Positions 32,601 through 60,800 of a stretch of 64,000 nucleotides of DNA are shown here, piece after piece. This DNA comes from Plumapathes pennacea (taxonomy: Eukaryota; Cnidaria; Anthozoa; Antipatharia; Myriopathidae), in contig OZ038468.1 in NCBI GenBank assembly GCA_964036295.1, forward strand, positions 18,627,183-18,691,182, given 5' to 3'. How positions within the stretch are numbered: the first letter of the stretch is position 1; each line of letters begins with the position of its first letter. The notes beneath the pieces were generated by a model. The model had not been told where the DNA came from and made no database searches. It worked only from the letters and a program-made list of their open reading frames with translations. The translations under genes were made by a program, and so were the position numbers.

Positions 32601-35116
32601 CGTCGCTGAGCATCAGGCGAGAGCTGGGTGTGGGAAAACTGACGGGAACGTAGTTTGACTTCGGACAGGAGTATTCGAGGTAACCTTGCGTCTTGTACTG
32701 TGGCTGGCAATGTTTTGCTCCGTAAAGAAGGTTTATTGAATCGAACACCACGTCTCTGAGGCAACCTACGAATCCTGGAGCGGACTTCACCCCGTGGTGT
32801 TCGTCAGACGAACTTCTGTCAATGCCACCGAGAAAGATTAAGCGGTCGAGGTCAAGCTGGACAAACATTCCTGGGATTGTGCTCGCGTTCCTCGTGGTCG
32901 TATCCAAGGCAACGGTCAGGTCGTGTTGTTTGCGGGCCATGCTCACAGTGTGCCAGTTGTCGTCAGACAATTTTACTCCGAGCAGTGTCGTGTGCTTGGC
33001 ATTTCCCATGTTAAGCGTCAGCCTGTCAGATAAAGTTAGTGTCCGTTACTGACGTGTCAATTTTATACTTAAAGCGCGTTTTCATGGGACTATTCTTTCT
33101 ATTCCTATTCCGGAAAGACGGTAATCGTTGCACTTTTGTGACCTACAGTAGAACCCCGCTATCTCGCGTACGACCTCAAGGCGCGGTTACTCGGCATAAG
33201 CAACAACAAAGTAAATCGCCATTTTGTTTGGTGACATTCTGTGATAGAGTACGAACGGATCGGAAGTAATTTTGTACAACAAGGTGCAGATACAAGGCCA
33301 AGCAGTTCGACGGACGGCTGTAAACTGCCCGGATATTTTGCCAGTGTATCGGAGGCAAGCTTGCTAGCCGTGAAACGAATTCTTTAAGGCATCGACTGGC
33401 TGACCTGAACACAATCCCAGACGCCAATAGCGTTAAAACGCAGACACTTCTTCAGAAAGGAATAGCAAAATACAGTCGGTTGAAATCGAACAATCACCGT
33501 GGTAAATTTCATCTTTTACAATAACAGGATTGTAGTTTTCAGAATCCAAGTTTTGACAAGATGACGACGCACAATACAATGGAAAGTGGAATTTTCCCAC
33601 TGTTTGAGGACTGCTCTATACAGTGTATTTTGAAATCACTGAAGGCGTAAACAATAGTGTTTTGGGTTTTGTTTCCTTTGCTGGAAAAGAGCTAAAGCTA
33701 TGACTTTCAGGAACCGGTGAGTTTTGAAAAATTACATCAATTAACGAACAGTACGCGTATGCTATAAAGTAGTGTTATCATTATGGTATTTCAACAGTCG
33801 CTGTATATTTTGTTGTTTAATGCCCCGGGAGCTGTGATGAAGGCCAAGTAGGATTATATTGTAATCTTTTCGCTAGTTTTCGAAGCTATTTCAGAGTGCC
33901 TTCGTGCAAGATTGTGTCATCCGATTCCTGACATGTTTGCATAATTTCACTGACAGTCTGACATATGGGAATGCTGTAAAGTTTTCTCGCCGTGTTTGTT
34001 GGCACACTGTATTCAAGGATAACATGTAACCGGGTTGAAGTGTTCTTGCTTTTTAAAGGCTACTAAAGTAGAAAATACCCGGCCAGGGGCCACTGCTTCC
34101 AAATTAAACAATTACAGTCTTTATGGGTGGCCGAATTTGCTCCCTCAACACAATCGACCTCGTACTCTTTAATGACCGGGTTGGCTCGCTCAGTACAATC
34201 GGACCTTGTATTATTTAGTGATTTAATTTCTTTTTTCTGTCAAAGATTTTAAATTCGTCAAACGCGGTTTGAAAAGTTGTTATGTTTAAAATTGAATCCT
34301 TGCCATAGTTCACACATTTTGGCGAGACTTCGAAAGCGTGTAAACAAGCGACTCTCGCTTTGACAGTTCTAAATTTGTTACACTCGAAGACTGCGTATCA
34401 GATTTATGAAGTAAAAAAACAACACACACCTGGGTATAGATACACAGGTGACATAATAAACATGGTTTCAGTGGTTCGACAGATTTTCTTTGTCCGTCGG
34501 GAAGTATGTTTATCTGCAACGCCATGATGTACACAAAAGTCTACAGCGGAAGTGGGGTTTTGTTTGGCTGCGTGTTGCGTATGATAAGTATCGTCAACAC
34601 GCCAAATATTTCTGCCAAAAGAAAAAGAAAATCGATGAATTTGTGAGTTCGCATTGAGCCGAACTCTTATGAAAGAACGCACTCTTGCGTAATGCTTCAG
34701 GAATACAAAGGAACTTATATTTCACAAAAGTAATCATTCTGATTGTGGTGTTTTGCTGGTCTTCATTCAGTCCTTACGTTTGTGAGTGGGATCAAACGCA
34801 AAAAGATTTAAGCGAGTTTCGCCGCGGAGACATCGTGACGCACAATGGCATTTATGGAGTAAATACGCCTCACTTACCTCAATTGTCCATACACGAGTTC
34901 GATCTTAACAAAATCGCCTTGCGTTCCGCTGCTGTATAAGATAAGTCCTGATGGATGGAATGTCTTAAACCCGAAGGAGATGTTATTAGCCTCAGCTGCA
35001 ACTGGACGGGAGTGCAGATCATAGCTGATATACTCGCTTCCACGCAGATGCACCTTGATTCCTGAACAATGCTCGCAAAACAGGATAAGTAAGAAGACAG
35101 CTTTCAAATAAGTCAT
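29610..35116 (-). CDS. Contactin-associated-protein-like (CASPR/neurexin-IV type) membrane protein, 869 aa
   Basis: Four exons: 34878-35116, 31975-33022, 31166-31604 and 29610-30493, junction phases 2, 0 and 1. The ATG at 35114-35116 opens a signal peptide (MTYLKAVFLLILFCEHCSG). Two laminin-G domains follow (APGFVGCLRDVVF and KPGFVGCMYNISING are their ends), then an EGF module (CFPNPCLNGGRCLQTWSEHR). Next is a fibrinogen-like module with DPDDVGPLKAFEVLCNM, NNWGGAPTGVKKCACG and CNCDIKDDKWHEDSG, then GYLLNKTTLPVT. That fibrinogen-like signature is specific to the CASPR family. A Thr/Ser-rich stalk, one membrane helix (about residues 756-778, FIILVTTSILAFILLIAVVI) and a Cys-rich juxtamembrane tail complete it. 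Compared with bilaterian CASPRs it lacks the N-terminal discoidin domain, the C-terminal laminin-G/EGF units and an obvious protein-4.1 or PDZ motif. It probably acts in cell adhesion. Confidence 0.88.
33404..33780. repeat. Copy A of a dispersed direct duplication
   Basis: Shares gacctgaacacaatcccaga, then the segment from ttttgacaagatgacgac to acgcgtatgct, with 35607-35880 at high identity. Copy A carries about 125 extra bases (33425-33550) between the two shared blocks. It lies in the first intron of the CASPR-like gene. Confidence 0.9.
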
Positions 35117-37153: not shown

Positions 37154-39835
37154 TCAAAGCCAGGTGTCCCACACGCCCTCGCTCTTCGACACTTTTTCCA
37201 GGAGGAACTTCACACGGTCCGGCGAGGCCCTCTTTCCTTGAGTGTTTTCAAAACACAAGTTCATGATTTCGTGAAGCTAAAAAATAAAATAAAACAAAAC
37301 AAAACAAAAGAGCAGGAAATAGTCAGTTTTTTTTTTTTTTTTTTTTTTCAAGTGTGTACCAGTAGGGCCAGTTCCCATCCCGTTGGGTGTTTCGGCGCAT
37401 GAACGAGCGACTTTTCAACTTCACAAGGCATGCAGTATGTTTACAACTGCTCATCGAAATCTCTAGCATGTGCCATCTTGATAATAGCAAGTATTAGTAT
37501 ATACCACACAAGTGAATAGTGCTTTCCGCGCGCTCTGATTGGCTCCTCAATCTCGGAATATCAAGTACTATTCACCTCCCGGCGGCTTCCGGTAAAACAA
37601 AATGGTGCGCGAATCCAAAATTTGCCCACTTTCGTCGGAAATAAAATAGCTATTTGGGAGTTGGCTATTAAACTTGTGTGGTATATACTAAAACAATTAT
37701 TCGCCTCAGTGTCGGTGAAACGGCTCGGTAAATATCCACCGCTATTCACCTCCACTTCGGCAAATAATTGTTAAATAAAGTTGATCCCTACGCCCCCCCC
37801 CCCCCCCCCCCCCCCTTCCTTCAAATCACTGCTGATCGTTTCAGCTGAAGAAAGAGCGCGCACGTGCTTAGCGGTCAGGTGCGGAGGATCGCGGGCGTCG
37901 AAATATAAAACGGCTGAGGACTGAGGCGAGTGTATTGGTTTAGTGTCTTTTTGTTATCAAGCATCTCGGTTCTAGTGTACAAAGTGACATCATGTCATTA
38001 CCTCGGTGTATTCACTTGAGCCGTTACAGTGACCAAGCAGTGTGGCCAGCAGTTGCCCAAACTGCTCCAGATCGCTTCCGCCAAAACTTTGCTCTGCGCA
38101 TGCCCAGTTGGAGTACGTTCCTTCTCCGTCCGCCACGCGATGTGCACGCGTGAAGCCACCGAGCACAGCTCTGATTGGAGGAACCTGTCAAGGACACGCG
38201 AATAAGTCGGGTGCACTATGTTCAGCTCACACTGACAATTGGCATGATCGGCGCATGAAAACGGCTCGGTTTGGTTAGGAAAATTCTTAAAAAGTCTTAC
38301 CCTGGCACAGTAGCCAATCAGGATGCTCCTTGTGCTGATGTTATTATGGCATATCCCGTGAGCCTGCAGGTGCGCAATAGCACTGATGACGTCAATAGCC
38401 ACAGCGCATACTGCATCGGAGTTCATTGTCGTGGCACCTTCACTCAAGAAATCTTCCAAAGTTGTACTGGACACAAATTCATAACAGATGAGGCTGGAAA
38501 AAGCAGAACGATCGAACTTTGTGAAACTCACGAGGTGTTCAGGAGTGGCTTTAAGTTTTTCATTTAAGTTGCTAATCAGAGACTTTTCTCGAAGTGAAAC
38601 ATACAATACATTGGTACTACTACAAAAACTACTAATCCATTACTATTACAACGTAGGTTTGTGTAGTCATGATGCACACAGACGAAAGACTAACAGATCG
38701 AAACGTCAAATGGAGAGGGGAGGGGGGATGCCTATACGGCATTTAGCAAATCCACATCAAGCCAACGTTGGTAATTATGTTGTGGTGTTGTGGTACATAC
38801 AAGCTTGTGTCTTTAAGGGCAGACAATTTTATCTTGCCACTGTCGATGTCATGGTAACTTGCTGCAAAACAAATAGTTTAGGATTGAGGAGAAAATTATA
38901 TGATACCAATAAAGACAATACAATGCGGCGAGACGAGACTTGGAGATAGCACAAGACGAGAGAAGACGATGCGAGAGAAAACTCAGAAAGAGAGACAAAA
39001 CAAGACAAAAAGCGAGACAAGACTGCACGATACGATACGGCGACACGATACGGTACGGTGGTACGATACAATACGATACGGTACGGTACAGTACGATACG
39101 ATACGAGACAATGCAATAAGAAAAGCGAGATAAGGCGGTACGATACCATACGTTACTGTACGATACGATACGGTACTACGAGACAAGACAAAACAAATCC
39201 CGCGAGAAAACGATACGATACAAGACAAGCAAAAAGTCCGGAGAAAACGAGACGGGACAAGAGGAAACATAGCATTTTGATGCAAGATATGAAGCTGATG
39301 AACACCTTCAGAATGCCAGCAGTAGTTCATCAAGTTTGGATGTTCTCTAAGGTCGCGCAACTGCAGCATAAGGTCTGTTTCTCGTTTCCAGGTCCCCTCG
39401 GCATCTTTTTCGAAGAACTTCAACAGATTCATACTGAGACTTTTGGATCTTTCCAGCCATGCAATCACGTATCCCTGTGGTAAATAAGTAAAGAAATATA
39501 CAGTGACTAATAAGCATCACGAAAGTATTCTTGTAGACATAAGAAGTCATTAACCAATAAGAGCGGTGCTTCTTTGTGGCTTCCTCGCGGTTTTTAAAGG
39601 TTACTATTACACGCGTATTTCCGCGGTGTCGCTGTACCTACCACAGAACTTGATGCTTCGTCCTGAAAAATGGCGGGAACTTCTATCAAGCGAATTTTTA
39701 TCCTCTCTGGTTCCCGTATAACTGTTTGTTCGTTACCCTCCCGCGTCATCAGCTGTGGACTGGGGTTGATAGAACTGACCATTGTGGCGTCATCAACGAC
39801 GCTCTTCAATCTGTCCATGGTTTGATTGTCTCCAG
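37154..39835 (-). CDS. C-terminal tail exons: degenerate protein-kinase domain
   Basis: Exons 39642-39835, 39306-39474, 38801-38861, 38301-38619, 38002 or 38028 to 38231, and 37154-37276 (TGA 37154-37156). The first is a disordered tail. The second looks like a kinase N-lobe: NLLKFFEKD (beta-3), then ETDLMLQLRDLREHPNLMNY (helix C to beta-4). The fourth has ATPEHLVSFTKFDR, SSLICYEF, then DVISAIAHLQAHGICHNNIS and TRSILI, which is helix E and the catalytic loop with HNN in place of HRD. The fifth has VHIAWRTEKE at the APE position and AEAIWSSLG at the DVWSFG position. The last has EIMNLCFENTQGKRASPDRV, the helix H/I end of kinase folds. No DFG is visible. Catalysis is unlikely. About 20 residues between the last two exons are unaccounted for, and the fifth exon's donor is uncertain. 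Confidence 0.7.
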
Positions 39836-42800
39836 CTGAAGAAACATAAATCTAATTAACACCAAGTTCAAAATGCAGATTCTCCCAACCTATTAAGAGG
39901 AAATTCTGTAAGTGATGTAGTGAGAATTGATAGTTTAGTCAGCCTTCATCCGAGCAAGGTATCAAAAACCAAGTTCTCCTTACTGTATGATATATTTGTG
40001 CTGCCGAAACTAAAGGAGAAAATTGAACTTGATCACTCTTGGTAACAAAAGGGTTAACTTTTGTCAAAAATTTGTCAAGGTCTAGTTATATAACTCACCT
40101 GCTGTTGTCATCCGCCGGATGTTACGCAGTATAAAACTACCGGCAGTCTTCTTCTTGCGTTCTAACTGATTTTTGACTCGAGTAGTGGAAAACGTGTATA
40201 GAATTGGATTGATGGAAGAGTTGAGCGGCAGGACGAACACCGCTATCCACACATAGGCCTGCTTCTTGGGATCGTAGAATTTTCCAAGCAATGACAAGAT
40301 ACTGATGATGATGATTGGCATCCAGCAAAAGAAGTCTGTCATGACAATGAACAAGAGCCGTCTGGCCATGGCGGATTCTTTGCTCATACTCGTAGACCTT
40401 ACAGCTTTGGAAGCGTTATGGACTGTCCAAAACATGGCTACGTAAGCAATAAAGATAAACACGAAAGAGATCGCGTTCAGTCCGATAAAGAACGCAATTG
40501 CATACTCCCAGCCCACGGGTCGGTCTGCTGATAGTTGGAGAGGCAAACAGACTGCAGAACGGCTGTAGAATCCAAAATCCTTATCCTTGTCGTAGAAGTA
40601 GCTTATTTCAGCGACTGGGAGCACTGAAATCAAAAGCCCAAAGAGCCACGAACAGGAACAGACCAGGAACGCCTTCTTGTAGCGCAGTCGGTTAAATCTG
40701 AACGGGAACACGATACAAACGAGCCTGTCAGCTGTGATAATTGTCAGTATCAGCACCGAAACTTCGCTGGAGAGCATGGACAAGATCCCCGCTAGCTTGC
40801 AGCCGACTCCAGACCTCCAGGCAATGTCGTGCTTAAAATACTCGCCTTGCCAACGCGCATCCATTATCGCTATGAGCAGTAAATAGACTCCCATAAGGAG
40901 ATCGGCTATCGCCAAGTTGGTGAGTAGGAACGAGTGCACCCGCCTTTCTTCCTTGTCAATTAGTCGCCAAATGATCACAAAGAAGTTTCCCAAGAACGCA
41001 CTGATTCCCAGTATCCAGATACAGACTTGAAGAGCTTTGTTCTTCATCAAGTCGTCACAGCTTGAGAATTCGTCCACTGGCGAGTCGCATTCTAATCCCG
41101 CGATGGATTTCCTGGCGTAGCAGCACAGAATAAAGCGGTCCAGTTTCCTGAGGTTAGACGCAGAGAAACATTTTTGAAGATGGACGTGGAGAATATTTTC
41201 ACATTACAGTGAACTCCCTCCAACACGGACACCGGCCCTCGGGACCTGGTCTAGGTGTCCGCTTTATGGAGGTGTCCGTCTTGAAAAAGTTGATTGTATT
41301 AATGGGTTTCTAATTTATCTAATTTCATTAACTACTTCACACAGGCTTGTTTAACTTTGCACAGTCGTAGGACATTAATATAAATGACAAGATTTATCTT
41401 CTAACAGTTGACTGGCTGACTGACTGATGCACAAACTGATTAACAGACGGACAGGTGACAAAAAGCAACGTGACGTAAAACATCCCAAGTACTTACAGGT
41501 ATTTCAAGTTTGATAGCTCGCTAAATGCATCTGGCGACACGTCACTGAGTTTGTTGTTGTGAAGGTACCTGGTATATTTATAAGTAAAATGCGTGATGTG
41601 CAATACAAACGCACGTTACATTCATAATTAACACAACTAAACCACAAGTGTACATGACTAAGCGTTTGACAGCCCTGAACACTTACACCCTAAGAACCGT
41701 GGGTTTAAAAGTTGGTGAGAGTTCAGTTTTCGCGGGGTTTAGTTTCTGTGACCGAAGTTGGCCATTTATACATAGAGACAGTCTGGAACCTAATGCCCAG
41801 TTCCTCGTGGACGAACACGAGCGCAATACTTACAGGCGTCTCAGTGAATGGAGACCACGAAGGGAGCCCTTTGTGAGTTTGGTGAGCTTATTTGTACTGA
41901 GGTCTCTGCAAAAAAAAATAATAATAATAAATAAATAATAATAATAATAAAAATAATAAAAAAGAAAATAAAACAAAGACATCGCAGATGAACGGGATGA
42001 TAAAATATACTCACAGAATTTCCAGCTTTGATAGGAAGCTAAAGATGCCATCAGGAAGATTGTTGATCTCATTGTCTTGAAGATAACTGCAGGACGAAAA
42101 GGGAACCGAGGAATGATGAAGATAACGAAAAGACTCAGTAGAAACAAGAAGCGGTCGATGGAAGTGGTTGATAGTAGTAGTTGTAGCTGTAGTAGTTACT
42201 AGAAGTAGTAATAGTAGTATAGTAAATCAAAGGTTTCAGTTGTAGTAGTATTGGTGATAGACGAAGTAGAAAAGTTGGTGTATCAACTAGGTGTTGATGA
42301 GGGTAATGGAACGCCGTAAGAGAGACAATAGCTGACGTTTCGAGCGCTAGCCCTTCGTCATTCGCTCTGACGAAGGGCTAGCGCTCGAAACGTCAGCTAA
42401 TGTCTCTTTTACGGCGTTCCATTACCCTCATCAACACCTAGTTGATACACCAGTTTGTCTTCCGCCACGCCGACGCAGTCAACCTAGTTCTCTTAAGAGC
42501 TGGTATTACGAAGTAGAAAAGTATCTGACAGTGTTAAATCGTGAATTGTTCACGGAAAAAACTTACAGAAACGTCAGATTTCCTGTGCTGTTGAAGACAC
42601 CATTCTCCAGTTCACCGATACGGTTTGAATGCAAGCTCCTTCGAGAAATTAACAACCAGTAGGAACACAAAATGTGCCAAGCTTTTAAATAAGGGTTCTT
42701 ATTACGTAAACAGAGCGGCCGTCAGCTGCTGAATATCTATCCGTTAATGTGTGTCATATGTAAAAAGTATGTCTAACGTTTTGTAGAGTCTTGATTGAAT

Positions 42801-45800
42801 CAATATTGTCCCACTTACTACATAAAACAAACATAACTTACAATACATGAAGACGTGAAAGCCCGTCAAAAATGCCCTCCGCTGCACGGCCAAGTAGATT
42901 ACGGGAAAGATCTCTGGGAAGGGAAAGAAAGAAGAAGCAGTCGATGCTGCAGCAGTCAAACAATGGACTGCGAAAAGGATCACGGGAATTGTCTTGGTCT
43001 ATACCCAGAAGTCAATGGGATCAGGTTACTTCTGCGCACTTACAGAACTCGAAGGCTGTCTATTCTTTGAAAAACATCGGCGGGGAGATTTCTGATGAAG
43101 TTAGAGTTAAGCCGCCTGGAGAAGGGAAAGATGAATAGAGATGAACCAAAATACTAGTATTAGTTCTACTGGGAATTACTGCAAACGAAAACGGACAGAA
43201 ATGACAGTTGGCACAATAACAACTACAGCTGTTCCAGTCTTGATTGCTTTAAATACCAAGAGCATGATTAATGGAGCAAACAGCTCCTTTCAATACACTT
43301 TATATTCAACATAGTGACAAACAAGCGTCTGTAGTTACTTACATCGTAGTCAGTGAAGAGAGGTTTTGAAAGGCGTCTACATCCACGTATAAAACGATGT
43401 TGTTGCTGATGTCGCTAAAGAGAAATTTAGTGTTATAAAACATTAGCTTGTTTTAGCATGTAGAAGACTAAGGCGTGCATTAGTTAACACAATCAGATTC
43501 TGACTACGGTCCAAACTATCAGTCGAAAATCGGAACTGTTCGTTAGCTTTTACTTCATGTCGTCATCGGTTGCCAGAACAATTTTTGGGGTTGTTTAAGT
43601 CTCGTCCGATAGCAAAAAATGTGTTGTGTCCTGAAATTACGGTAACTTTGCTGGTGAACACTGAACAGACCAATGCGTTTTGTTCTCCAAAGGAGTCAAA
43701 GCAATTCCAAGTCCAAGGCCATTTGACGCCAAAATCCACTCTATTTTCGACAATTACTCTCGCAATTCTCAGGGTAGTAGTGAGTTGCTGACTTACATAT
43801 ATTGAAGCTTTAGCAAATTATGGAACGATCCTTCTCGTAAGTGTGATATGCGGTTCTTCTGAAACATCCTGAAATGTGAAAGGCAGAGATTCATTACACA
43901 GGAGAGCCAGATGAAGATATTTTACAATATTTGTTTTCGGCTCTTGGCTTGTTTTTTGATTTTTGTTTTTGTTTCTTTTTTTTTACCTACCAGTAAAACT
44001 ACCAGTAAAAATACTCGTACACCTCTCTAGAGCACCAAGATGACGCTCCCCATCCCTACCCCCATCTCTACCCCCCCCCCCCCCCCTCACCCCCACCTCT
44101 ATTACACTTACAGAGCTGCCGTGTCAGATGGAAAGTTGCTGGGGACCATCAGAAGCTCCTGTCCTTCAACCAACAGCGCCGAGTGGAGCTGAGTTGGACT
44201 GTTGCTTAGGAACGTGCACTTGCAATTCGTTGGACACCCTATCGATGATGTGCGTCAAGCAAAACATACAGTGTATCAACGTGAGATTGATGTAGATATC
44301 ATGAACGCCCGGATGTAAACAGACGCCAAAGTAGCGTACGAGCCATACTCGCCCCATTTTCCGCGCGCCATACTCTCCCGCGCTAGCTACTGGACTCACA
44401 CTTGCTACACCATTCTTTCTTGTGTGACTGTTCTGGTTCTTACTGAACATTTCTTACCTTGGTGTCGTGAGCAAGATAGACTGTCCTCTTCATAGTCTGG
44501 TTGATAGTGAGATAGATAAGAAGTTCAGTATAGAAGTTCAATGATAAATTTTATTGATGATTTTTTGACACTGGCACATATTTTATTCTATTTCATCATG
44601 AGTTTCCAAAAGCACATAGCGACGAAGAAGCTCACGTTTCAAACAAATCAATAATGAAAGTGCAAAATCCAAAAACAAAATGATCACTCATCGATGGAGA
44701 ATAAACTTTGTGATTGTTCCCTACCTGGTCCTATGGTAACCACCAATCATTTGTCCACACATATAAATGTCTAGATTCCATGAGTGCCTTTAATAGAACC
44801 AGACTGCTACGCACAAATCAATATGCATCAATCATTAACATACCTTTTACAGGCTGGTAATATGCCTTAAAGCCAGTTCTGTAATGCTCGTTATTGGACT
44901 TGAAGATCACCATTAAATGGTTCGAGGAGGACTGAAACACAGGTGGATACGTGAAGCCACAGAACTTTCCGAGCATGCGCGCGCTACCGCTGAGCCCATC
45001 TATGACTTTAACGAAATCGTGGTCGCACATTGGATGATCCTCCAAGACGAATTCTTTAAATTCCAGACGGATGACGTAGCCTCTAGGTACCGAGATTCGC
45101 CAGGTGCAGGTAGTATCGTCCGGGTAGTAGGATGGATAAGAAGGAGAGAAGATAAAGCCAGAAGTGTTGATCAAACTCTCACTGCACGCTGCATAAAAAA
45201 ATGAAAATGAAAATGAAATATTTATCCGGGCTGTAACTCGCTCTGAGTTAATAGGCCATTTCTGAGACGTCGTTGCCTCAAAATGGGAGTCTGGTGCAGT
45301 ATCGTTGTAATGAAATGTTTATAATTTCACGCACATCAAACTTATTTTAACACGAAAGGTCTTGCACTGGACCTCGCTTTGAAGTAGAGGCAATAGACAT
45401 CTCGGTGATGGCCTATTGGTTACTATCAGTGACGTCATTTTTATGAAGGCGCACGCAGGATTATGGATGAGGGAGGGTCTTAAAAATAAAACAGAAGCAA
45501 ATCGCCTTTATTACCATTTATGGCGCGAGGTGGCTCATGCTTGCAGGGACCAAAGTCTGCAATATGCACACCAGCTATGGCTATGTAACCAGGCTCGCTG
45601 CTGACCTCTCCTTTTATTAGCACCTGTGCAAATGATAAGCACGAGTCATGGCGGAGAAGATATTTAAATGGATGAGATATGTAGACACAAGAATCGTAGG
45701 AAGACACCAATGTTATTTGTTATCACTTCTTATTTGACTCCCTTGCACAATCTCCACTCAAACCAGTTTGGTAGAGACCCCTGTACACGCCAAAACCAGA

Positions 45801-48800
45801 TTTTTACTTTGCAGCACGTGCGAACTTGATACAGTGAAAACATTTAGACTACTGGGATAGCAGAACAACAAGTGCCGCTTTTACGCTCAAACAAACGCTG
45901 TCATGACAATCACGGGTCCGGTAGAAATCCCCAAGTCCCCTTATCCCTATTTAAGGCAACGTCTACCTTGTATTTGGAGACGGCCGCAAGCGGGACCTGA
46001 CCATATGTCCATGTGCTGTGCGTGTTATCGCTGTCCTCCCAAACTGGTCTCTCTGGGAAAGTGTCGACCTTCTGGTAAATTCTCAGTTTTCTTGCCCCAG
46101 GACCAAACATCGTGTAGCGAAACCTCAAACACTGGGTGTACCAGTCCTTTGATCGCGCGTATTGTGGGCTCATCAGTACAGCGGTGATGTTAATTGCAGT
46201 GGAATTTGCTTTGACTATGAGTCGAGTGGCTGTTGAGGAAATGGGAAGACGGTGCGAAATTGTAATCAGCATGTCAGGACCTTGCGCCAGAGCCCAAGTT
46301 AACTTAACCTCATAGAGAAATGGACGAAAATAATTCTGCCCGCTCATAAAGCCTGTAAAACGTGCCCGCCATACATTGACCAGCATATGCCTTGTTCCCA
46401 GGGCCTTACCGTTGCGGTCTTTGCACGACGCGGGTTTTCGATTTATCTTTCCCGAGATGCCTTTCGGGACCGCTGCCCAGGACTTCACGTTGCCAGATTC
46501 CTCGCCACAGCCAAATGACATGCGCAGTACCTCCTCCTTACTGAAATAATAGTCCCACAAGTTCAGGCCGGCGAGAACTCCATGAACTGTTGAGTCGTTA
46601 CCAGTAGCAGCCATGTAGCCAATCGAAAGCGATCCTCCGCCTTTTGTAACAAAATCAGTATCGCAAACGTTTTTAAAATTGGTGAGTTAAGAGAAGTGGG
46701 AATACAGCAACTCCGTGCCTCACTATGATGACAAATCTTCTCAACCATGATCCTTCAGGCGTGTATATTATTGTTAGCCATATGGCGTGTGACGTCAAAA
46801 CGTATTGATCTTAGTGCAAGGGATTTTGATCGGATTGTAATCAAGTATTTACCCTAAAGTCGAAAATGGCGTCAGGGCGCGCAAAGGATCATGGTAAAGT
46901 GTGTTCATTTAAGGCGTCATTTCTTAAACAAGCGGAGGTTCCCTAAAAACACATACTATGACTATGACTCAGTGAAGAATATTTCTTATACCTGAAATTT
47001 TAAGATTACGAAAGCCAGTAAATTGCTCCACGCGTTGTCCGTCTTTGTAGATTTCCACCAATCCGCCGTAGGAATCCCATGTTTCGCACACGTGGTGCCA
47101 CAAGCCGTCAAGAAGAGTCACGGACGTGATCCTAAAAATAGATTCAGCGTAGAACTCTCTGTTTCTTCAATGTAGCGATAAATATCATGTTCCGATTGAC
47201 GTAATTCAAAACCTGCTAACTGGTTATTCAAAGCAAGCCTAACCTGGCACAAGAGTTTCCTTTCGCTCTAAAGCACCAAGGCGTCCTCAGAGGAGATGGA
47301 CATGTTTCATTTGGGGAGTTACATGCACAAATCAAGGTAACCTTCTCAGTTATGCCAGGACAGCCTCGTTTTGAAGCTTAAGTCAGCTTCCGTGCAAGGA
47401 GCGCTCATTGGGGAATACTTTGCGGTTTAAAAAGGTTACATAAAACTACAAAATCTGCATTTTACCACAACACACTAGTTTCTCGCTCTCTGATTGGTCG
47501 ATTTATCGTGGTAAATAAGAGTCCAGACAACGATGCTGACGCCAGCATGTCACGTTTTGCAGTGAAATACAACGAAAGTTTCCTATATATTTCTAAATGT
47601 AAAAAACAAATTTCCACTGGTTTGCCGTGGTGTGGACTCTTATTTACCACGATTTACGTCACCACATGGTCAAAATTAGTTGCGGACTCACTCGGCGAAG
47701 CGCCTCGTGAGTCCACAACATTTGCCATGTGATGACGTAAATCGTGGTAAATAAGAGTCCACACCACGGCAAACCAGTGGAAATTTATTAACTTGACTCC
47801 CACAGTTTTGTGCAATCACCGCTGACCGCATGGCCGTAAAACGTTGAATCACAAAGTAGCGTGGTTTAGTGAAACTTTGATCAACAACATGACAAATGAC
47901 AAATATACTCACTTGACGATTCCATCAATCTGTACGACAAGAACCTGGGAATGAAACAACCCAAAGGCCAACTTTTCTTTCTCCTCAACTGCGATGTTAT
48001 ATGCCACGAAGAAACCTTCAGTTTTTGTGCGAAGCCAAAAACACAGCGTAAAGCCGTACTTCAACGGTGAAATCTCTTGCAATGTCACGTGACCGGTACT
48101 CATGTTACCCATGTGAAGCTCGAAATCAAAGAGCAGACGTTGCGCTTCTGGTAAGATGAAAATATGAAACTTTATATTTTAGCTGACGTTTCGAGTGTTA
48201 GCCAATCGTCGGACTTGCTCCGACAAGGGCGCTAACTAAAACGACTCAACCACCGCCAGTTTTCACACATTGACACTTGGTCGGTTTATCATACCCATAC
48301 GGCCCGCTCTTGTTAGTAAAGTATGCTATAGAATGGGCAAATTTTGACGCATCTACGTAAAATCAGAGTTTGATTTGTCGGTTGGAAGGCTGACTCGTCC
48401 CCAGTCGTCTCAGCTCTTCTTATGCGCCCGTGCGGGACGACGGGAAGGATAAATGTAGCTCCTTCTTTCCTTCCCGTCACTCCCCTTGAGCCCCGCGCAA
48501 ATAAGAGAGACGACTGAGGACAAGTCAGGGTTGGAAGAACAAGGCGGATGTCCTCAGAGCAAATTACAAAGTATTGGCCAATCTCAAGAAGTAAATTTTC
48601 AGCTAAATATATCCGTGTTTTCCAAACAGGCGTTTCCAAACTGAGTAAGTTCCTTTGACTTACTTGGTGAGAGTGTAGACTCGTTTACTTGCTTGATATA
48701 TTGTTGAATTTCTGCATTCATGTTTTCTACTTCGTCATAATCCGCTGATTGCCATTGACTCATGTTATTCTGGTTATACCATCCGCAAAAAGATTTCTTG

Positions 48801-51800
48801 GAAATATCACATGCCTGAGATTCTGGGAAAAAAGGACAAAAAGTCGATAATTTAGTTTTAAGACATACACCTTTGAGCTGCCCTAATTGACCATATATTT
48901 TGCTTCTGTTATATCGGATGTTATATCCCTTAGACATTCCAAATGTTTAGCATCTGCTTACCTAAACACTCGTAATCTCCTCTGAGGTCGTCAAAGTTAA
49001 TGTGGCCCCACACGCTTCTGGACAAGTCTTGCAAGCGTAGCTGTGCAATCCGCCCCTTATACCTGCCAACATTAATAACTATACGCCGCATTTCGTCACT
49101 ACAGTTTCCTGTAAATATCCACCTAGGTAACTGATCAACAACTATGTCCAAACCCACTTTTGAAATGTCACAGCCTCCACCAATCAAAAAGCTCAACACG
49201 GATCCAGTTAATCGTATTAGCGGGGACATCAGAAATCCAACAGGAGTCTCGCCTTGAACTCCTCCCGGTTTCAACAAGGAAGAGGGACGGTTTTCATAGG
49301 ATCCTATCCACCACATGCCCTGCTGATTAGCGGATTGACTTCCAAATGTTCGCGCTTTTACGTTATCGCCGAACGTGGGTTGATTGTTGAAAGCTGTCCC
49401 TTGTCGCTTCCAGCCTTCCAGTGTTTGTTTCTCGAAGTCAAAGTTTCCACATGATTGTCCTGTAAAAACAATCCATGTATATGATCGGATATTTGGATTC
49501 AGTGATCACATTTATATCCGGCTGTATGTAAAGCCTGGTTCTCACTGGCGCATAAGCATATGCACAAGCACAAGAGAACGACAGTGGCGACATAAGCATA
49601 AGCAAAGGATCAAATTTAAACGTCATGCTTATGTCGCCACTGTCGCTCTCTTGTGCTTATGCTTATGAGCTGGTGAGGCCCAGGCTTAACTACTTAAAAC
49701 ACTAAAAACCACGCAGAAATGGCGTGGGACTGTTATGCAAACCTGGCAGCACGGATCCTGATGGTATGTCTTTGCAAGTTTCCGTAGAGAAAGACACATC
49801 GTCAATTCCCACATTGGCACCGAAAAAGTGTGAGTTGTAGCCGCTATAAACAATCTGCGGGATAATAAGACAAGACGAAAGGTGTTAGGCTGTCCCAGCA
49901 ACAGGTACCTAACATTATTAAACAATTTTCTAAGACGGCTGTTCCTAAAGTAACTTCGGTAAGAATTTAAATTACCTGAGCGTCAGTTTGCCATGAATAT
50001 ATTGGCCTTTGCACGTATTGCCATCTACCCGTGGCCTTCGTAGCGTGAAATATTATCACAGGACGAGATTTCCTGTACACTAAGCTTACTATCAGACGTG
50101 GCCGTTGGCCTCCAAGGTTTCTTCCGATGTAGTACGAGAATCGAACGCACTTCCACTTGTACGAGTCTGTGTTGAAGTGCGGTGTGGTGATATTTCTGTA
50201 TTTTTCGTTATCATCTTTTGTTAGGTGCACAAACCCGCCTGAAATATTGAGAGAATTGTGAACTCGAATCCACATAGCCGCAGACCACCAGTTACACGTC
50301 AAGGGTCATATACCACGAGTCTTAAGTCACATGTCAAGGGTCACACACCATGAAGTTACAAATCTCATTCCAAGGGTCATAGGCCATGAGAAACAAGTCA
50401 CATGTAAATGGTAGTACGCCACAAGTGACAAATCACATGTTAAGGGTCATACGTCATAATTCACATGTCAAGGGTCACAAGTCATTAGCATAATTCAATA
50501 CTGACCATTTGTTTGCAGGTCAGACAAATAGAAAGCCAAAGACCAGCCGTCATGGGTTTCCCAGCCACACAAATCTTCTTCAAAGTAACAGTCCGGACTC
50601 TCTGTGGAGGTCAAGGAGAATGGATTGCGTTCTACTCCTTAAAACATTTCTGTTCCTAATACTTTATATATTCACGTGTGTATGTGGTTCGTTAGAACGT
50701 CAACGTGCGTTGACCAATGGGTCGGAAGAGGACAATATCACTACACCGTTGATTCGTACCTTGGTTAGTCACCTTGTCACAACTTCCCTCCAGTATGGCT
50801 AGGTCATCCACGGCAATATCACCCTCATTTCCACGCAAAGTAACACCTTCGAAAACAAACTATGGAGCAAACATAAAGTGCAATTACAAATGGATCAAAT
50901 GGCTCCTGCGTTTGTCAGAAGGAGCTGTAAAGAGGTATATAATGGCCAGTTTTCACTTGCAAAATAACAAAGTTAACCTTGTATCGTTGTTCGTGCCGCA
51001 AAGCTGTCTGGGCAAATCTCCAGCGGTTGCCGTGCTTTGCAGTTTGTCTCCACACAAGAGTTTCTGATTGGTTAGTTCTGATGTAGACACTGAGGTTTCC
51101 TATGTCCTTGCCGTACATGTGGTACCAAAACTGAAGGCAAACCGTTTCATTCCGATCCATCTCGCCGCTCAAGAGTCGCGCTTTATCTCCATGGTTACGT
51201 TGGGAGGCTTCGATGAATATGTACGTCCCTGGAATATCGAAAACCTCACATGATCAGTAGAATATTGAATTTCTCGGCCGATTCAGTCGTAGTTAGACAT
51301 ACTGACCTTTTCTTGTGAAGGTTGTATGATCATAGCTTGGTCCAGTGTCGTCTGTGGGTGTTGCAGCTGAGCCCAAGGACCAGAAAAACGTAGAATTTCT
51401 GTCATGGCTCATGCCGCAAAGACCATTCTCAAAGCCGCACAGACCTGAGTAGGTGCAACACATCCAAAGAGATTTTAACCTATCACAATCCTTCTTCTTT
51501 TAATACCGAACAAGGATATGTGGAAATATATTATAGATAATTCATTATCTTATCTCTTGCCCAGCAGACAGTTGGTTTATATTGGTTGTAATTGTTCCGC
51601 AATTGGTATTTTTGCTTAAATCTAACCAACAGTAGTTAAACGGATGGACACATTCTATTTACGTACCTCGAAAGGATCTGCAGTGGTCTTGATCGGCACT
51701 GGAGCTGGAAGAGTTAGCAGCAGGGCATCCAAGATCATCAAGGCTGCAGCTCCCCATTTCTGAAAAGAAGAACATTCAACTTTTTCAGCCATCAAAGGCA

Positions 51801-54800
51801 AGAAAGATAAGAAAATTAAAGGATTGAAGAGACGTTTGACGAAGTAAAACAATATCTAACTTTTTGGCAATGTTACATCTGAGGTACATACATTTCACTC
51901 CTGAGAGCGATCGACTTCAAGGTTCAAGGTTCGGGGGTTCAAGGTTTAAGGTTTAAGGTTCAAAGTTCAAGGTTGAAGGTCCTTACCACAGATGCTGGGG
52001 TTTTGTGTGTTGTCCACGCAGGCGCCAGTGTCCATACTACACGTCTTTGACCAGGGCACGCAATTCCCATCTGCACACTGGAACTCCTCCTTGCATTCTA
52101 CGCCTAAGAAGACACGGATATGCGAGAGAGCGCAAATTGTGAAGTTAAGTTCATTAGTAGAGATTGTGAGAGACGAGATTTAGCCTGTATACATGTGAAT
52201 ATTAGGCGAGAGAACATGAAGCAAAGTAACAAACTTAGTCCACGTGTATCCTTTTCGATTAAAAACGCACATTTTCCTATGTGGTTCGGCCTCCCGTCCA
52301 CACGTAAATGATGTGAACGGTGATCGAAAACAGAATATTTCGAAAACGCCCCTAAACTGGACATTTTTAAAACGTTGACGTCACGATGATAGCGTGATTC
52401 GAACACGCTGTCGTGTGGACGGAGAAATTTTTGAAACGGAAAAAGTTCTGTGTTTTCAAACGAAAACGAATTAGTGTGGTCGGGCAAAAACAAATCGAAA
52501 GCGCTATCGTGTGGACGGAGAAATTTTTGAGAACGGAGACTGAAAAAAATTGTGTGGACGGGGTTTTAGTAGCTAATTGCAAATTAGTTGGTAGCTAATT
52601 AGAGAAGAGATAATGATAAACTCACGGCAGTTTTCCTCGTCTGATCTGTCTGTGCAATCTTTTATTCCATCACACAACGACGTCGCAGGGACGCACTCTC
52701 CACTTAGACAAGAAAATTTATTGGACGGGCATGCGCAGTTCTTCTCGTCTGACTTGTCTTGGCACGCGAAGTCCCCGTCACACAGGAGGTTCTTTTTGAC
52801 ACATTCCTTGTTGTCGCACTGAAACTGCTCAGCCGTGCAGCGGAAATCTAAGGATGAAATCAAATGAGTAATTAATGAACAGACGACAAATGTGTTTTTT
52901 CACTACAAACTATTGGGCTCGTGCAAATTACGTCATAAATCAAATGACTTATGCCGTCAACTTGCACAAACTCAATACAAACCTGGTATCTTCTTAAGTT
53001 GCGTGTGTGAGTTTATGTGGAGCGGTTCGCAAGAATTTGAAACTAGAAGACGATAAAGTGTGATCATGTGAAGTCGTTTTACCTGGTGTGGCGTAGTGGG
53101 GCATCAGCGAACACGCTTCTGTTGTGATCTCGATATCATCAATGGCCACATTGATACCGTTCTTCAGAATACCGACTCCCTCAAAAATGACCTAAAGGTG
53201 CAGAGATAAGCAATTTCTGCAGTTAAATTCTTATACGATCAAAAAAAGCATAGTTTTGCACACCTATCACGAGGGCTCTGATTTCACTTCAATGTTCATT
53301 GATAACTGACTTACTTTAGTTCCTTTCTGAGCGGCCCATGAAACCTGGGCACGTGACCATTCGTTTCCATGGTAACCGATTAGGTGCCATATCACCGTTT
53401 CGTTTAATTGTGAGCTCAGCAAAACCTTCAAGTGCGACGCGGTTGTATTTGGCATCAGGTAGGAGAACCGCAGACACAACCCTATGTTTTGGTATACTTT
53501 TTGCCATGGTAATGGTTGGCTCATAAGAAATGCCCTGTAGTTGCCATCAAGGTAAGCAAAATAACCTGGAACCGGAAGTAAAACAACTCAGTTACAGCTG
53601 CAGCACAACTGGCCAAGGAAGAGTGTTCTTGCTCGTAAAATTTAGTCTTTGCAAAACTGTGCTTGTGAACCCAGTGAAATCATATTTTCTGACATTACAG
53701 TCATTTTACAAGTCAAGAAGCTTGTTACGCAGAAAGAATTCTACTGGGGCTCTACAGTCGCTTCGAAGCTGTTATACTTGATCTGCGGCAAAACCTAACT
53801 TTGTCATGTCTTACTTTGATTCTATTTTTGGGTTCATCGAATGCTTGCATCGAGAACTTACCTGGGAGTGTCGTGGCTTGTGCGTGTGAACTTTTCCATA
53901 TTTGGTCGTTGCTCTCGCCGTACGTGATCCAGTCACAAAGTCCAGACGGAAATCTACACTCCTTCAGAATGACCGCTGAAATAATAAAGAGACATGGGAG
54001 TAACTCATCTGTTATGCATGGTTTGTGTGTGTAAGAATGTAGAAATGCGGTAGTGGTATTTATGAACAGATGTATATGTATTACTAGATGTGCGGTTTCA
54101 GCTATCGCTTAAAAAACTGGCGACGCGTTTGTCACGCTAATTTGCATTAATTATCGTTTGTGCTTCATGTGAGTTTGTATGTATAGCGTTTAGAGATTGA
54201 AACATTTACTGTTACTATAAAGGTCTTTGTTGGCCAAAGATGTAGTATTATTTTACAGCAGATACAGTCTCACAGAACCTTTAACTTCCAGGTTTCCGAT
54301 TTCCCGTTGACGTTCGGCTTGTTCTGAGTCGTTAACAAAGGAATGGTGAATCTGTGTAATTGTGAAAAGCCAAATAACAGGTATTTTAGAAAGGAAAATC
54401 TAAGAACCTCAGCTCATAAGCGTAAGGTCTTTCAGGTGAGAGAAAAAAAATAGCAGTTACTTGTCAGCGGTTTTCCCATAAAGGGCGTCAAACGCAAGTT
54501 CGTTTAAGCGTCGATCCCAAACGCCTCACTAGTTACGTCTGTTTCGAGAGAAAAAAATAGTAGTTACTTGTCAGCGGTTTTCTTACCTTTATGCTGTAGT
54601 TTCCAGGCTGTGTTTCAATATTAAATCGGATTGAGAAAGAGGAATTGAGACAGTCCATGCGGGCATTTGCGTCGAGTAACAGTCTCTTGTTCATCAGAGA
54701 AAAGTACAACTGAAGAGAGCAGTCTGGACAGTAGACACCGTGACAGCAGTAACTGTAATTCCCTATAACATCACGTGATAAATCAGTGGTCACGAAATAA

Positions 54801-57800
54801 TTTAGTAGCCATGTGGCAAATTGGTAAGTCACGTGACAATCGGTGACACAAAATAGACAATCGTATCTATCAGTTCATTGATTCATTTTTACCTGAAATT
54901 TGTAGATCTGATCCAACTAAAGTAGAAATCCATTTTTCGTCATTTTTGAGGACAAATGAGAGACTTCGCTTTCCTGCAACGAGTGAAATACGTCTTAAGT
55001 GTACTTAATGTCGTATCTACTCTTCTTAAACCCCAAAACAACAAAATTATCTAAACCAGTACCTGGAAGTAGCCAATAAAGCCTTCGGTTTTCAATTGGT
55101 CCTTCGAAGTCGCCATTCGGCGCGCGCATCGCTAAAGACACGTGATCCTCGACACCACTCTCTCTCATGAACACCTGCAGCTTGTACATGTAGCATCTGC
55201 TCATGCGCACGTGTTTAGACGTCTGAAGATCTGGGTAACTGAAACAGGGTTCAAAAATTTTGAAACGAACTTAAGTGGTGGAGAATCCTGCGAAAATGTC
55301 ATCAATGTGTGTTTGAGTGTAACGTGATTATCGAAACGTATATTGCGGACATTTTTTCAAAATTAAAATGCCAAAGCAACAAAGGGTTTTCTAAGAAACG
55401 AGAACACCGAAATGAAAATATTGCTGAGGGATAGCAAACTGTTTAAATACCAGTAAAAGTATACACTCATAGTATACAAGTATAGAGAGTTTACAAGCAT
55501 GTTGGATGGAGGGAACAATGAAATATTTTTGCCCAACAAAAGTTTTTCTTTCCAAGATAATTTTTAAAATTCTATTGTTCCCGCCATCCAACATGGCCGC
55601 CACGCAAACCCTTAATTACCGATTCCACTCTTGATGTCCAGTGAAACTGTTTAGATTTATCAAACGATTCGATTCCTCTTCGACGTTGTTATCATTGTCG
55701 ATCTTGTCGTCCATCCCGTCTTCGTGAACGTCAAACTTCCACAACTCGCATTTGTCGTCACACGCCAGATAAAAGGTGTAGTTACCAGTTTCTTCAACCT
55801 AGAAGATAAAACTACGTTTAAAGGGAAACTCGAAGCTCCAAGTGGTTTTCGCTTGCATTCGACTCAAGGTCGTTCACTCCATTGCTAAATTCATCAAGTG
55901 GAAAGTTTACTTTCCTTATAGAGATACAAGATAGCAATTGGACTTCATGAGGAATTCAGGAACTGTATAGCGTCGTGCTTTCCCGCAATACGCCAATGCT
56001 TGCTATTTCGTTACTCACAAACATGGCACGGTAAAAATAATGTTAAAATGACCAAAAATAGGCGGATGGATTACCTGAATATGTGCTGCAAGACGCTGTA
56101 TATAAAAATTAGCGAAATCCTTGGGAGAGTCGAAATGTTGTATTACATTTTGTCCCTGGGGAGTGTTCTTGAACGCAGGATTAGTCTTCATGTTAGGCGC
56201 CAGCTTTTCGTTGTACTTTACATTGTACCAGCCTTCTCTCAAAACTCCTTTGGCATTCACAGAAGAATCTGTTTCGTGCAAAATCATATGAGAACTATTA
56301 GACTGTTATGCTATCTATTCATTGTATTTCAGTGTCGTTTCATCCTAAACACTAGGCATGTTAGGCACTAGGATTTAGACACCGGGGCCCAGTTTTTCAA
56401 AGCACGATTAGGCTAATCCTGGATTAGGTCTAAACCTTCTTGTCATTTTTTAGCCTGAAAACGTGAACGTTTCGTCCACAACGACTTTCTTGATAACGTT
56501 TTAAGCCAACTAGCTTACTAATCCATCTTCGAACAAAACTCTGCAGTTTATTAGGAGAGAGGTCGAGAGAAAGAATGTCGTTAATCCTGGATTAGCTTAA
56601 TCGACTTTCGAAAAACCGGGCCTGGAAGAACTACTAAACTTACCAAACGCATAAACAGCCACGTGACAAACAGCGAGAGGTGTCGTTGCCTTAAAAACGC
56701 TTAGTCTTACATATTGGGCCAGTATTGGCGGCCGACACTGCAGATCTTCAGACAAACCCGAGTTATATTTTGCCCAATTCTTGCAGCTGTACAAATTTCC
56801 TGGATGTTTGTCAACGACTTCTATGATAAACGTTCCTTCTTTCTGTGTACAGCAATCTTGGGGAAATCTCACGGCCACTTGATACACGAGTACGGGTGCA
56901 TCTAGTTGAATCTCCAGCCAAGGATCTGATTCCTAAAACAACAGGCAAAAGACGAAGATGCAGCGATCGGGTTTGTTCACTTGGCCCACAACTGGGGGAG
57001 TACTCCCATATATGAGCCATATAGGTATGTGCCGCCCCAAAGGATATTATTGTCAGCATTTTAGTCTAAAATAGGGTATCGAATTTGAACCTTTGGTCTG
57101 GAATAGGGTCGGAGATTTTAATATTTGGTCTGCAATAGGGTCGAAATTGCTCATTTTGGTCTGAAATAAGGTCAAAAATTGCAAATCTTGGTCTGAAAAC
57201 GGTCAAAAATTGCAAATTCTCACCTTTTTACTTCTGAAACACGAAGTGTAACTACCATCAACAGCAAGCGAGGGATCGTAGCTGTGACGTGCACTCGAGC
57301 TGGTAACGGGACGTCTGTGGGCAACGTTTACTACAAAGAGACAAAACAAGCTGTGAGATTGAGTGTATTGATAGTTGATGAACAGAAGTTGGCTATTGCA
57401 GAGCACGCTATTCTCAGTAGGTTCTTCGTCCGTGGAGTGCGACAGGAGAAACTGGGCACGAATGAAGCTTGATGGGAAGGGGAGAAAGTCGCGTTCTTAT
57501 TTTTCCGCGGGTCCAGCTCCGCGCACCCCACGAGGAAGTAATGGATTGGGGCGAGGCAGATTCAAGTTGGAAGGTTAAAAAGGCAAAAGGACTGAACAAC
57601 ACGAGAAACAGATGCACAAGACAATAAGATATAAAATCAGGAGTAAAATTCATAAACAAAGGATTAAGAACGGGAAAAAAATAGGTTTTGAAAGGCTAAG
57701 TTAACAACGAGAGAAAAATAAACACATAAACGGCATGCGGGTTAACGAGAAAATTATGAAATGTTTACGCACAAATATAAATTTATTTAACAATAATCCC

Positions 57801-60800
57801 TTACTTTTGTTGGACTGACAAACGTAGTTGCTGAGGGATGCACAGTTGACATTAGCTAGTTTTGAAGCGGCTCGGGACAAAATTGCACAGGATGTGGCAG
57901 AGGTGCTCCTTGGATAGCTTGGCATCCATACGCTAGAGTTTACGAAGCTGCCATCAACCCAGCTCCATGCTTCATGTACGACCAATCCAATGTAAATGGT
58001 GTCAGGTGTGGGTCGCAGTTTGTACAGCACTTGTGTCATGGCACTCCTGAGTCCGGGACGGTCAACAATTGCCAAACGTGCACCCTTTTCCCGGCATGCA
58101 GTAGAAGCTTGATGCCACGTGGTTAGCGCTGTGGCGTTGAAGAGGAAGCAACCCCCATGGATGGGACGGAAGCCAGTTCGACACTGAATGGTTTCTGTGT
58201 GAACCGTGATCAATTAATCTTTGTCAGTGACAAGTAGATTCGGCCAGAAATGCATTCAAATACAAAACTACACGATTAATCTCCACAGAAAACCGCTCTA
58301 ATGTTCCCACGGTTTCATTCCAGCAAGCAAACAAAATAATGAGTACGACTCGTATACTATAAACACCCGTTTACCAAGAGTAACATAGGAACGAGGCACC
58401 TTACCATTTATGTTGTTACATCTGTCTTTGGCAACCATGATTTGCTCATTGGAAAGAGCTTCCGCGTAGACTTGCAGGCACGCCACCTTTCCTCGGAAAT
58501 ACCGCTTGTCGCCAATTCTTGCACCCATCCGAACATTCGCGTTTGTTGCCAGCTCCCGTTTTCCAATATTTTTTGTTGTCACTGTTCTATTTCCAATCCA
58601 CAGCGTTGCCTCCCCAGTGTCGCCATTGTAGGTAGTTCCAACGTATTGCCATTCATTTTTTCTTAATTCTCTGCTCATCAAAGGACCCGGCCAGCTATTA
58701 TCCCTGAACACGAAACGCGCAAACAACATGAAGGGAGCGTTAACCCACAGATGTACTCCCCAAGCATTTCTGCGATAATTGAAAATTGGCCCGTCTTTCT
58801 CAGGGTTTATCCAAGCAAGGATGCTGATGGAATATCTGGTGTCTAGAGTTTCGGAGCTCGGAAATTCCACGTAGCTGTTTTCAGTTCCATTAAAATAGAA
58901 GGAGCCATTAGGGTTTCCAAAAGGTCCTGGTGTAAGATAGACACCGACTTCTTGGCCACGTCGTTGCTGTTGACGACCAATGTCTGCTGACTTATAGCGA
59001 CCATTGAGGGGGAAAAAGGCCACGGGGTTTAAAGGAGCTGTAAACAGATAACTATATTTTTCATATACAGCCGCTTTACGTCTGGCAGCTTTTTAGTTCT
59101 CTTTAAAGTTCAAAAGCCGCCCGACTTGAGGCGGCTGTATTTCTAGGCGGGCTAGCGCCTCAAGAACTATGCTTCCAGATATAAAGCTAAACATGACAAG
59201 CGAAGCGTATCGTTTTTAAAGCTGGTACACACGAGTAAAGCAAGCAACAAGCGAAAACGCAAACGCAAGTGTAAGCGACCGGTTCACACGGTAAAATTGG
59301 TGAAGCAAGCGCAAACGCAGACGCTAGAGAATGGAAAAGTTTGCATTATCTTGTGCTTGCTTTACTGTGTGAACCAGCGAGAGGGATTCTCTAGACAACT
59401 AAATGTTGTTACCATTGTAGTCCTCGCAAATATATCCATGCTGCTGATGACAAGGTAGGTCGTTCCAGCGCCAACCCAAACCGACCCATTGGGAGTTCCA
59501 CTTGATGGCATTCAGTAACGCTCCACATCTACCATCGCCACTCGGCTCTTTCGGTCCCCAGAGATTAGAGCTGGGGGTTTTTCCTGTGTCCTGCCAAATC
59601 CAATTAAATTGCCCATAGAGTCCAAGATAGAGCGATGCCTGGGGATGCCCCAGACTTGTGGCAATTCTTGATAGTTCCTTGAGTTCGTGATGGTGCGGTA
59701 ATATTGCGAGATCGCCGCCTTTCTTGTGACAGTCAACTCGCGCATCGTTCCACGTCACAACATTTTCCAAAAACAAAAGATGGCAGTAGTTCCCAATTTG
59801 GTGCCAACCCGGCAAACAGGCAGAGCTTCTGTTTGAGCCTGTTGGTAGAAGAAGCAAATAAAATGGCAGCGGTATCTGGGAAATGCGTTCTTGATGTCAC
59901 TTCCGCTGGTCAGCATTTATCACCATTGCTACTCGCCTAACTTGAGATAAATTTTCACACGTGTGCAAGCCCCATTTTTGTTGCGTACAGCTTAAACTAT
60001 GGAAAGTGTATCAAACTAACATATGCATTAATTCGTTCACTAAGCAAAGCCGCAAAGAATGCACATGTAAGTAAGTTTTAAAATAAAGTCAACTCTCTCT
60101 ATACGGAAACCTCTCTAAAGCGGACAGCATGCAGATTTGGTCTTTGTCGATTTTCACTTGTTTCTCTGTAACTGAACTCTCTCTAAGGCGGACACCTCTC
60201 TAAAGCGGACAGCATGCAGATTTGGTCTTTGTCGATTTTCACTTGTTTCTCTGTAACTAAACTCTCTCCAGGGCAGACACCTCTCTAAAGCGGACAGCAT
60301 GCAGATTTGGTCCTTGCCGATTTTCACTTGTTTCTCTGTAACTGAACTCTCTCTAAGGCGGACACTAAATGCTAGTAGTGTCTGCCTTAGAGCGAGCTGA
60401 CTGTAGTGTTGTATCTTGCCAAAACAACAAGGCACAACTTGGTACACGTTTAATAGCCATTCCATCAACTAAATCGTATTGATTGATAAAAAAGAGCAAC
60501 TATCGCAGACAACAAGACAACCAACAAGAAGAAAAGACAACAACATATAATTCAAGTAACAACGACAACAACAACAACAACAACAACAACAACACTAGAA
60601 CAAAACGAAATAACAAAAAACGAAAACAAGACAACCAACCTTGTTCTGTGACGTTGTACACACGAAACTGGGATACGTCTTCGTCGCTGCAACACCCCAC
60701 CTGTGTGTAATTATCTAAGCTGATCATTTGTGTCAGCGGTTGTCCTCTATTGACAAAGTATACTGCCGCGGATGAGTTATGTCGCCCTTCAATAATATAA

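Follow-up and report, generated by a model that had tools for sequence, protein, structure and literature searches.

Does a leucine-rich repeat (LRR)-containing G protein-coupled receptor (GPCR), or LGR, continue beyond its seventh membrane helix into a protein kinase domain? This question is raised by a stretch of 64,000 nucleotides from Plumapathes pennacea (C7:18627183-18691182 in a 290-Mb genome of 24 contigs). We call this whole stretch the window. A first-pass annotation had described there an LGR-type GPCR with a kinase-like domain fused after the seventh helix. The answer that we favor, with a probability of about 0.62, is that one gene encodes a relaxin-receptor-like LGR whose cytoplasmic portion would be a kinase fold without catalytic residues, would end in a PDZ-ligand-like sequence, and would serve as a docking module. 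The narrower claim that receptor and pseudokinase are fused on a single transcript is very probably correct.

Receptor and tail exons in one reading frame

Sixteen minus-strand exons with GT-AG borders keep a single frame open from position 44238 to a stop codon at 37156-37154 (Table 1). They comprise an LRR cap, eight 72-nt LRR exons, a 1049-nt exon that encodes the hinge and the seven-transmembrane (7TM) region, and six tail exons that add 307 residues before the stop (TGA). The donor of the 7TM exon at 40099 reads GCAG^GTGAGT. All of the pieces named in the first-pass annotation, along with their in-phase splicing after 40099, were located on the minus strand where they had been placed. The spliced product is 890 residues long when counted from the LRR cap and 656 residues long when counted from the 7TM exon. 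Pfam finds LRR_8 (8e-67), 7tm_1 (2.1e-34), and PK_Tyr_Ser-Thr (1.8e-6) in the longer version, and 7tm_1 (1.1e-34) and PK_Tyr_Ser-Thr (8.5e-7) in the shorter. The combination by which an LGR is recognized, a rhodopsin-class 7TM domain preceded by an LRR ectodomain, is therefore found on one spliced product.

The identity of the receptor half is clear from its relatives of known structure. When compared with PDB entries, the 7TM exon matches RXFP1 (relaxin receptor 1) best (5.8e-59), followed by TSHR (1.5e-46), LHCGR (3.3e-42), and then FSHR, and the best non-LGR receptor among the best 60 matches listed reaches 2.6e-12. These results bear out the relaxin/glycoprotein-hormone type that had been proposed for the exon ending at 40099. 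Judged by these matches, the receptor is an LGR of type C that is relaxin-receptor-like.

The same arrangement recurs elsewhere in the genome. Eleven places in the genome match the 7TM exon at E 1e-15, namely the window, seven loci with 48-65% identity, and three with 32-35%. With three tail proteins as queries, whole-genome searches, which score the best candidates only, placed tail exons in the window and at the loci C7:13.88, C7:13.996, and C1:4.80. Tail exons lie directly downstream from the 7TM exon and on the same strand at four of the eight close 7TM loci, window included. At each of the other three, the models contain six open tail exons with GT-AG borders and the phases of the window gene (1,0,1,2,0,0). 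With the window included, the modelled tails end 2.9 to 4.7 kb past their 7TM exon. Counterparts of tail exon B are present at all three other loci. Identity of the whole tail to that of the window is 35% for both members of the C7 pair and 29% for C1:4.80, and tail exon E is 42-46% identical to its C7 counterparts. The model for C7:13.88 was mapped from that for C7:13.996, and exon D at C1:4.80 is the least certain. Further matches from the tail searches, on C5 and C3, have E values of 0.004 or worse, and two of them overlap Pfam kinase matches.

Because the same six exons follow a 7TM exon at three other loci with tail identities of 29-35%, the kinase-like tail goes beyond what chance would produce. 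The one spliced frame and the presence of this arrangement at four loci together support the original description of an LGR-type GPCR with a kinase-like domain after the seventh helix. C7:13.88 and C7:13.996 are near copies about 113 kb apart (C7:13865001-13895000 and 13975001-14005000). Their seven modelled exons are 97-100% alike, and the two 30-kb pieces are 85-98% alike where they align. The two may be an assembly doublet. Since they are near copies, the tails represent three independent lineages on two contigs.

The four tails end in GVWDTWL (window), GVWDTRL, GVWDTRL, and GIFDTRL, such that DT[R/W]L is common to all, and the tail-less receptor at C7:18.70 ends in GAVDTRL. Because the kinase exons have the same ending as a receptor paralog, these data suggest that the true receptor C-terminus lies at 37157. 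The motif is so short that the shared ending may have arisen by convergence. Class I PDZ ligands have the pattern S/T-x-hydrophobic at their extreme C-terminus, and this pattern is seen in DTWL as well as in the three copies of DTRL. CFTR also ends in DTRL. The C-terminus of the tail is thus PDZ-ligand-like and can be regarded as a putative PDZ ligand. The receptor at C7:18.70 (C7:18699670-18703668) is a neighbor that lies about 10 kb beyond the window; its 7TM region is 63% identical, and a near repeat of its final coding bases stands after its stop codon.

The alternative that survives best, improbable as it is, holds that a short-tailed LGR is followed by a separate pseudokinase gene, and that the two are spliceable in appearance only. 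Its proponents could cite in-frame Met codons within exon B, the stop codon that is met after five codons (GELYN) when the donor at 40099 is read through, and the close paralogs at C7:18.70 and on C4, which reach a stop inside their 7TM frame. Nevertheless, a separate downstream gene is disfavored because four loci on two contigs share the 7TM-then-kinase order, the strand, the phases, and the C-terminal DT[R/W]L, an ending found on both the kinase exons and a tail-less receptor paralog. Moreover, the intron between the 7TM exon and tail exon B measures 263 nt, and no AATAAA or ATTAAA is seen on the sense strand from 40098 to 37156, against 1.07 and 1.23 expected. The next such signals on this strand are at 36509 and 36160, and the next minus-strand gene seems by eye to start near 35116. 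The absence of polyadenylation signals is weak support for one transcript.

Kinase fold and catalytic residues of the tail

Searched alone against Pfam, the tail matches PK_Tyr_Ser-Thr over the cut-off (9.2e-8) and Pkinase under it (2.6e-4). When all four tails are considered, the former profile is matched by every one and the latter by three. With hhalign, a profile built from the four tails, three of which were kept after filtering, aligns with six frames from this genome that encode kinases, at a probability of 96.4% (E 1.3e-9). Under the same settings, the reversed profile gave 0.4% and three shuffles gave 0.1, 0.1, and 0.0%. In global mode, the profile alignment spans the whole kinase domain, N-lobe and C-lobe alike. 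Relative to the six kinases, the tail has an insert before beta5 and is without the stretch around helix G. It is because of this profile-profile alignment that the kinase assignment can be carried beyond tail residues 138-202. The kinase likeness that was first read from short motifs is thus also found by profile methods, and the tail is predicted to have a protein kinase fold across both lobes.

The signal is weak beside that of ordinary kinases, given that the tail exons of the window are not among the 154 matches listed in a whole-genome PF07714 search that scored the best candidates only. The tail could not be placed in any one kinase group, with PAK4 leading for the single sequence and TYK2 and KSR1 leading for the profile. 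The kinases and pseudokinases of PDB that best match the tail profile are TYK2 (3.4e-6, mainly through its second kinase domain), KSR1 (5.5e-6), IRE1 (1.8e-5), and JAK3 (2.9e-5). Such matches, some of which are to active kinases, are weak and partial, and no kinase family is assigned to the tail.

The global alignment pairs K84 with the beta3 Lys (VAVK), E97 with the alphaC Glu, H191 with the His of HRD, N193 with the catalytic Asp, G216 with the Asp of DFG, and D244 with the alphaF Asp. All four tails keep K84, E97, H191, and D244 unchanged. The HRD position reads HNN, HNW, HNW, and HNN, such that the catalytic Asp is replaced by Asn or Trp throughout. Likewise, the DFG position reads GFT, GFG, GFG, and NFS, with Gly or Asn in place of Asp in every tail. 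No GxGxxG Gly-rich loop was seen by eye in the four aligned tails. Of the features expected for an active kinase, the beta3 Lys and alphaC Glu are present, and the HRD Asp, the DFG Asp, and the GxGxxG loop are absent. Because both catalytic Asp residues are lacking in all four tails, the tail is, by sequence, a pseudokinase that looks catalytically dead. The earlier term “kinase-like domain” remains apt with regard to likeness, and it must now be qualified to denote a domain without catalytic residues.

Next among the alternatives, and quite improbable, is a tail that functions as an active kinase by means of unusual catalytic residues and through which the receptor would directly phosphorylate its targets. 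The retention of the beta3 Lys and alphaC Glu in four of four tails is compatible with such an enzyme, but the substitutions at both Asp positions in the same four tails, the lack of a visible GxGxxG loop, and the missing helix G stretch relative to six kinases all argue against it.

The near copies at C7:13.88 and C7:13.996 also permit an assessment of selection. Over 201.8 synonymous and 695.2 non-synonymous sites, their tails differ by six and five changes, respectively (Ks 0.030, Ka 0.0072, Ka/Ks about 0.24), and their 7TM regions differ by 12 of each type (Ks 0.051, Ka 0.0151). With 22.5% of sites being synonymous, a one-sided binomial test yields P 0.021 for the tail (6/11) and P 0.0039 for the 7TM region. 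This synonymous excess between near copies constitutes modest evidence that the tail is translated. The least probable alternative, that the tail exons are the decaying and no longer translated relic of an old fusion, might explain the degenerate catalytic motifs and the absence of a detectable tail at four of the eight close 7TM loci, but it is at odds with the six tail exons, which at each of four loci have open frames and undamaged splice borders, with the low Ka/Ks of the youngest pair (few changes as this is), and with structural residues and a C-terminus that are kept despite 29-35% identity.

History of the tail and extent of the gene

Several points weigh against the fusion of receptor and pseudokinase in one product. 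We infer this fusion from the genomic DNA of one species, and the 5′ end of the receptor gene was not found. The GELYN stop just past 40099 means that a short form could be made by intron retention. The best kinase stretch reported by HMMER is confined to tail residues 138-202, which is the middle of the domain only. Phase was used as a selection criterion for exon D at C7:13.996 and C1:4.80 and for the acceptor of exon B at C1:4.80, and the binomial test for the tail is based on 11 changes. Finally, no tail was found by tblastn within about 6 kb downstream at C9:15.07, C7:18.70, C10:2.36, and C4:13.65, and the tail carriers are not united in a 7TM tree of 11 rows, where the window gene stands beside the tail-less C7:18.70 (95/93).

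The best tblastn match at the four tail-less loci has an E value of 0.19, and the matches there are short isolated pieces. Tail exons may lie farther downstream at these loci. No tail was found around the three 7TM relatives of 32-35% identity, where approximately 1.5 kb was searched on each side. The tree requires at least two label changes for tail presence, and resolution is poor at four of its eight inner branches. Given the VDTRL ending of C7:18.70, the history that fits best is an old tail followed by losses. Repeated gain of the tail may be an alternative history.

The extent of 37154..41147 given by the first-pass annotation holds for the exons within it, and the same strand carries further exons of extracellular domains upstream. 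Besides the CUB frame, 16 open frames were scanned. Twelve of these match a profile with an E value of at most 0.01, and 10 of the 12 exceed the curated cut-off. The LDLa match is in a frame at 52573-52899, upstream of the receptor and on the same strand, and a pentraxin-like piece among the more distant frames falls below the cut-off. The upstream CUB, MAM, LDLa, F5/8C, C-type lectin, and laminin-G frames are probably part of the same candidate ectodomain. If they and the receptor form one gene, this ectodomain would be unusually large and lectin-rich.

Table 1. Minus-strand exons and domain-bearing frames of the window (positions counted from its first nucleotide)
Feature	Position	Strand	Evidence and remarks
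LRR N-terminal cap exon	44112..44238	minus	AG/GT borders; frame shared with the next 15 exons
Eight 72-nt LRR exons	41497..43868	minus	AG/GT borders, equal phase; LRR_8 in eight stretches of the spliced product
LRR exons individually	43868-43797, 43414-43343, 43115-43044, 42913-42842, 42638-42567, 42086-42015, 41905-41834, 41568-41497	minus	
Hinge and 7TM exon, relaxin-receptor-like (LGR type C)	40099..41147	minus	7tm_1 1.1e-34; PDB matches
Tail exon B: post-helix-8 linker, start of N-lobe	39642..39835	minus	AG acceptor, GTAGGT donor; phase 1 in, 0 out
Tail exon C: N-lobe, beta3 Lys (K84), alphaC Glu (E97)	39306..39474	minus	In phase
Tail exon D: insert preceding beta5	38801..38861	minus	GTATGT donor; length 61 nt; phase 1 in, 2 out
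Tail exon E: beta5 with helices D and E, catalytic loop degenerate (HNN in place of HRD)	38301..38493	minus	Holds the core of the Pfam match to kinases
Tail exon F: GFT for DFG (degenerate), WACAEQ resembling APE, SDLEQFG of alphaF	38002..38184	minus	In phase
Tail exon G: last helices, C-terminus GVWDTWL, TGA at 37156-37154	37154..37276	minus	In phase
CUB domain	44857..45186	minus	CUB 2.2e-32; probably same gene as receptor
Ectodomain frames: MAM, LDLa, F5/8C, two C-type lectins, laminin-G	45910..62787	minus	Possibly same gene

Repeats are present in several introns. An inverted repeat with the look of a foldback element lies within an LRR intron (42268-42460; two 93-nt arms, 95% complementary, 7-nt spacer). 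Another, MITE-like by eye, occupies part of the last intron (37491-37694; 23-nt arms, 96% complementary, 158 nt between them), and degenerate tandem repeats (ACGAT-like, periods of 5 to 37) are found between tail exons C and D (39026-39273). Frames resembling laminin-G, a start like that of a signal peptide, and a membrane-spanning stretch are present in the downstream gene on the minus strand (29610-35116), which appears neurexin-like by eye.

Proposed function and comparison with known systems

In LGRs, the ligand is bound by the LRR ectodomain and the G protein is coupled by the 7TM region. The product of the window gene would act in the same manner, with a single mRNA carrying both receptor and tail. 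Because catalysis is unlikely, we propose a docking or allosteric role for the tail, of the kind played by the pseudokinases of KSR and JAK JH2, which act as docking/allosteric platforms. The pseudokinase would form such a platform beneath the receptor, and its conformation would follow the state of the 7TM region. The kept Lys-Glu pair might still bind a nucleotide and thereby tune the tail, and the C-terminal DT[R/W]L would hold the complex on a PDZ scaffold. As a more tentative extension, there may be an anthozoan LGR-pseudokinase lineage, independent of the protist and sponge fusions, in which a ligand bound at the LRR ectodomain drives both a G protein and a PDZ-tethered allosteric scaffold via one chain. 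Such a receptor would combine a hormone GPCR with a docking platform akin to a receptor kinase.

If the proposed reading is correct, the 7TM-kinase arrangement would be extended to a well-studied class of hormone receptors and to a coral-like animal. It would also provide a natural case where the job of the tail cannot be catalysis. The genome contains both tailed and tail-less paralogs, which would be ready-made controls for establishing the purpose of the fusion.

Fusions of 7TM and kinase domains are described from oomycetes, amoebozoans, and choanoflagellates, and from sponges with tyrosine kinase (TK) domains, in a 2025 survey (PMC12716839). According to the survey, GPCR-TKs were not recovered in other metazoan lineages and none is known to have been functionally characterized. 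The first-pass annotation had attributed GPCR-kinase fusions to protists and not to LGRs; the protists are confirmed by this survey, and sponges must be added to them. For Nematostella, a 2022 review (PMC9545775) reports thirteen LGRs, nine of which fall outside types A to C, and a type C LGR with CUB and LDL domains; a count of “kinase” in the main text of this review gives 0. Within the open-licence full-text literature, in the parts available (including PMC8286064, PMC4079206, PMC9897584, and PMC10236652; subscription papers and gene-model databases lie outside this scope), no LGR-kinase fusion or cnidarian GPCR-kinase fusion was found. Since gene-model databases were outside the search, automated annotation of this build may already include the protein.

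By its predicted domain order, a 7TM region and then a C-terminal kinase fold, the window gene resembles the choanoflagellate GPCR-TKL/K and GPCR-TK, the sponge GPCR-TK, and the GPCR-kinases of oomycetes and amoebozoans, as these are presented in the survey (PMC12716839). It differs from those fusions in its LGR-type 7TM region, its coral-like host, and the catalytic degeneracy of its domain. With RXFP1/2, GRL101, and the type C LGRs it shares an LRR ectodomain, a cysteine hinge, and a 7TM region that is closest to RXFP1, but unlike them it has a predicted pseudokinase tail. Relative to the known GPCR-kinase fusions, the new elements would be an LGR as the receptor part and a pseudokinase as its partner.

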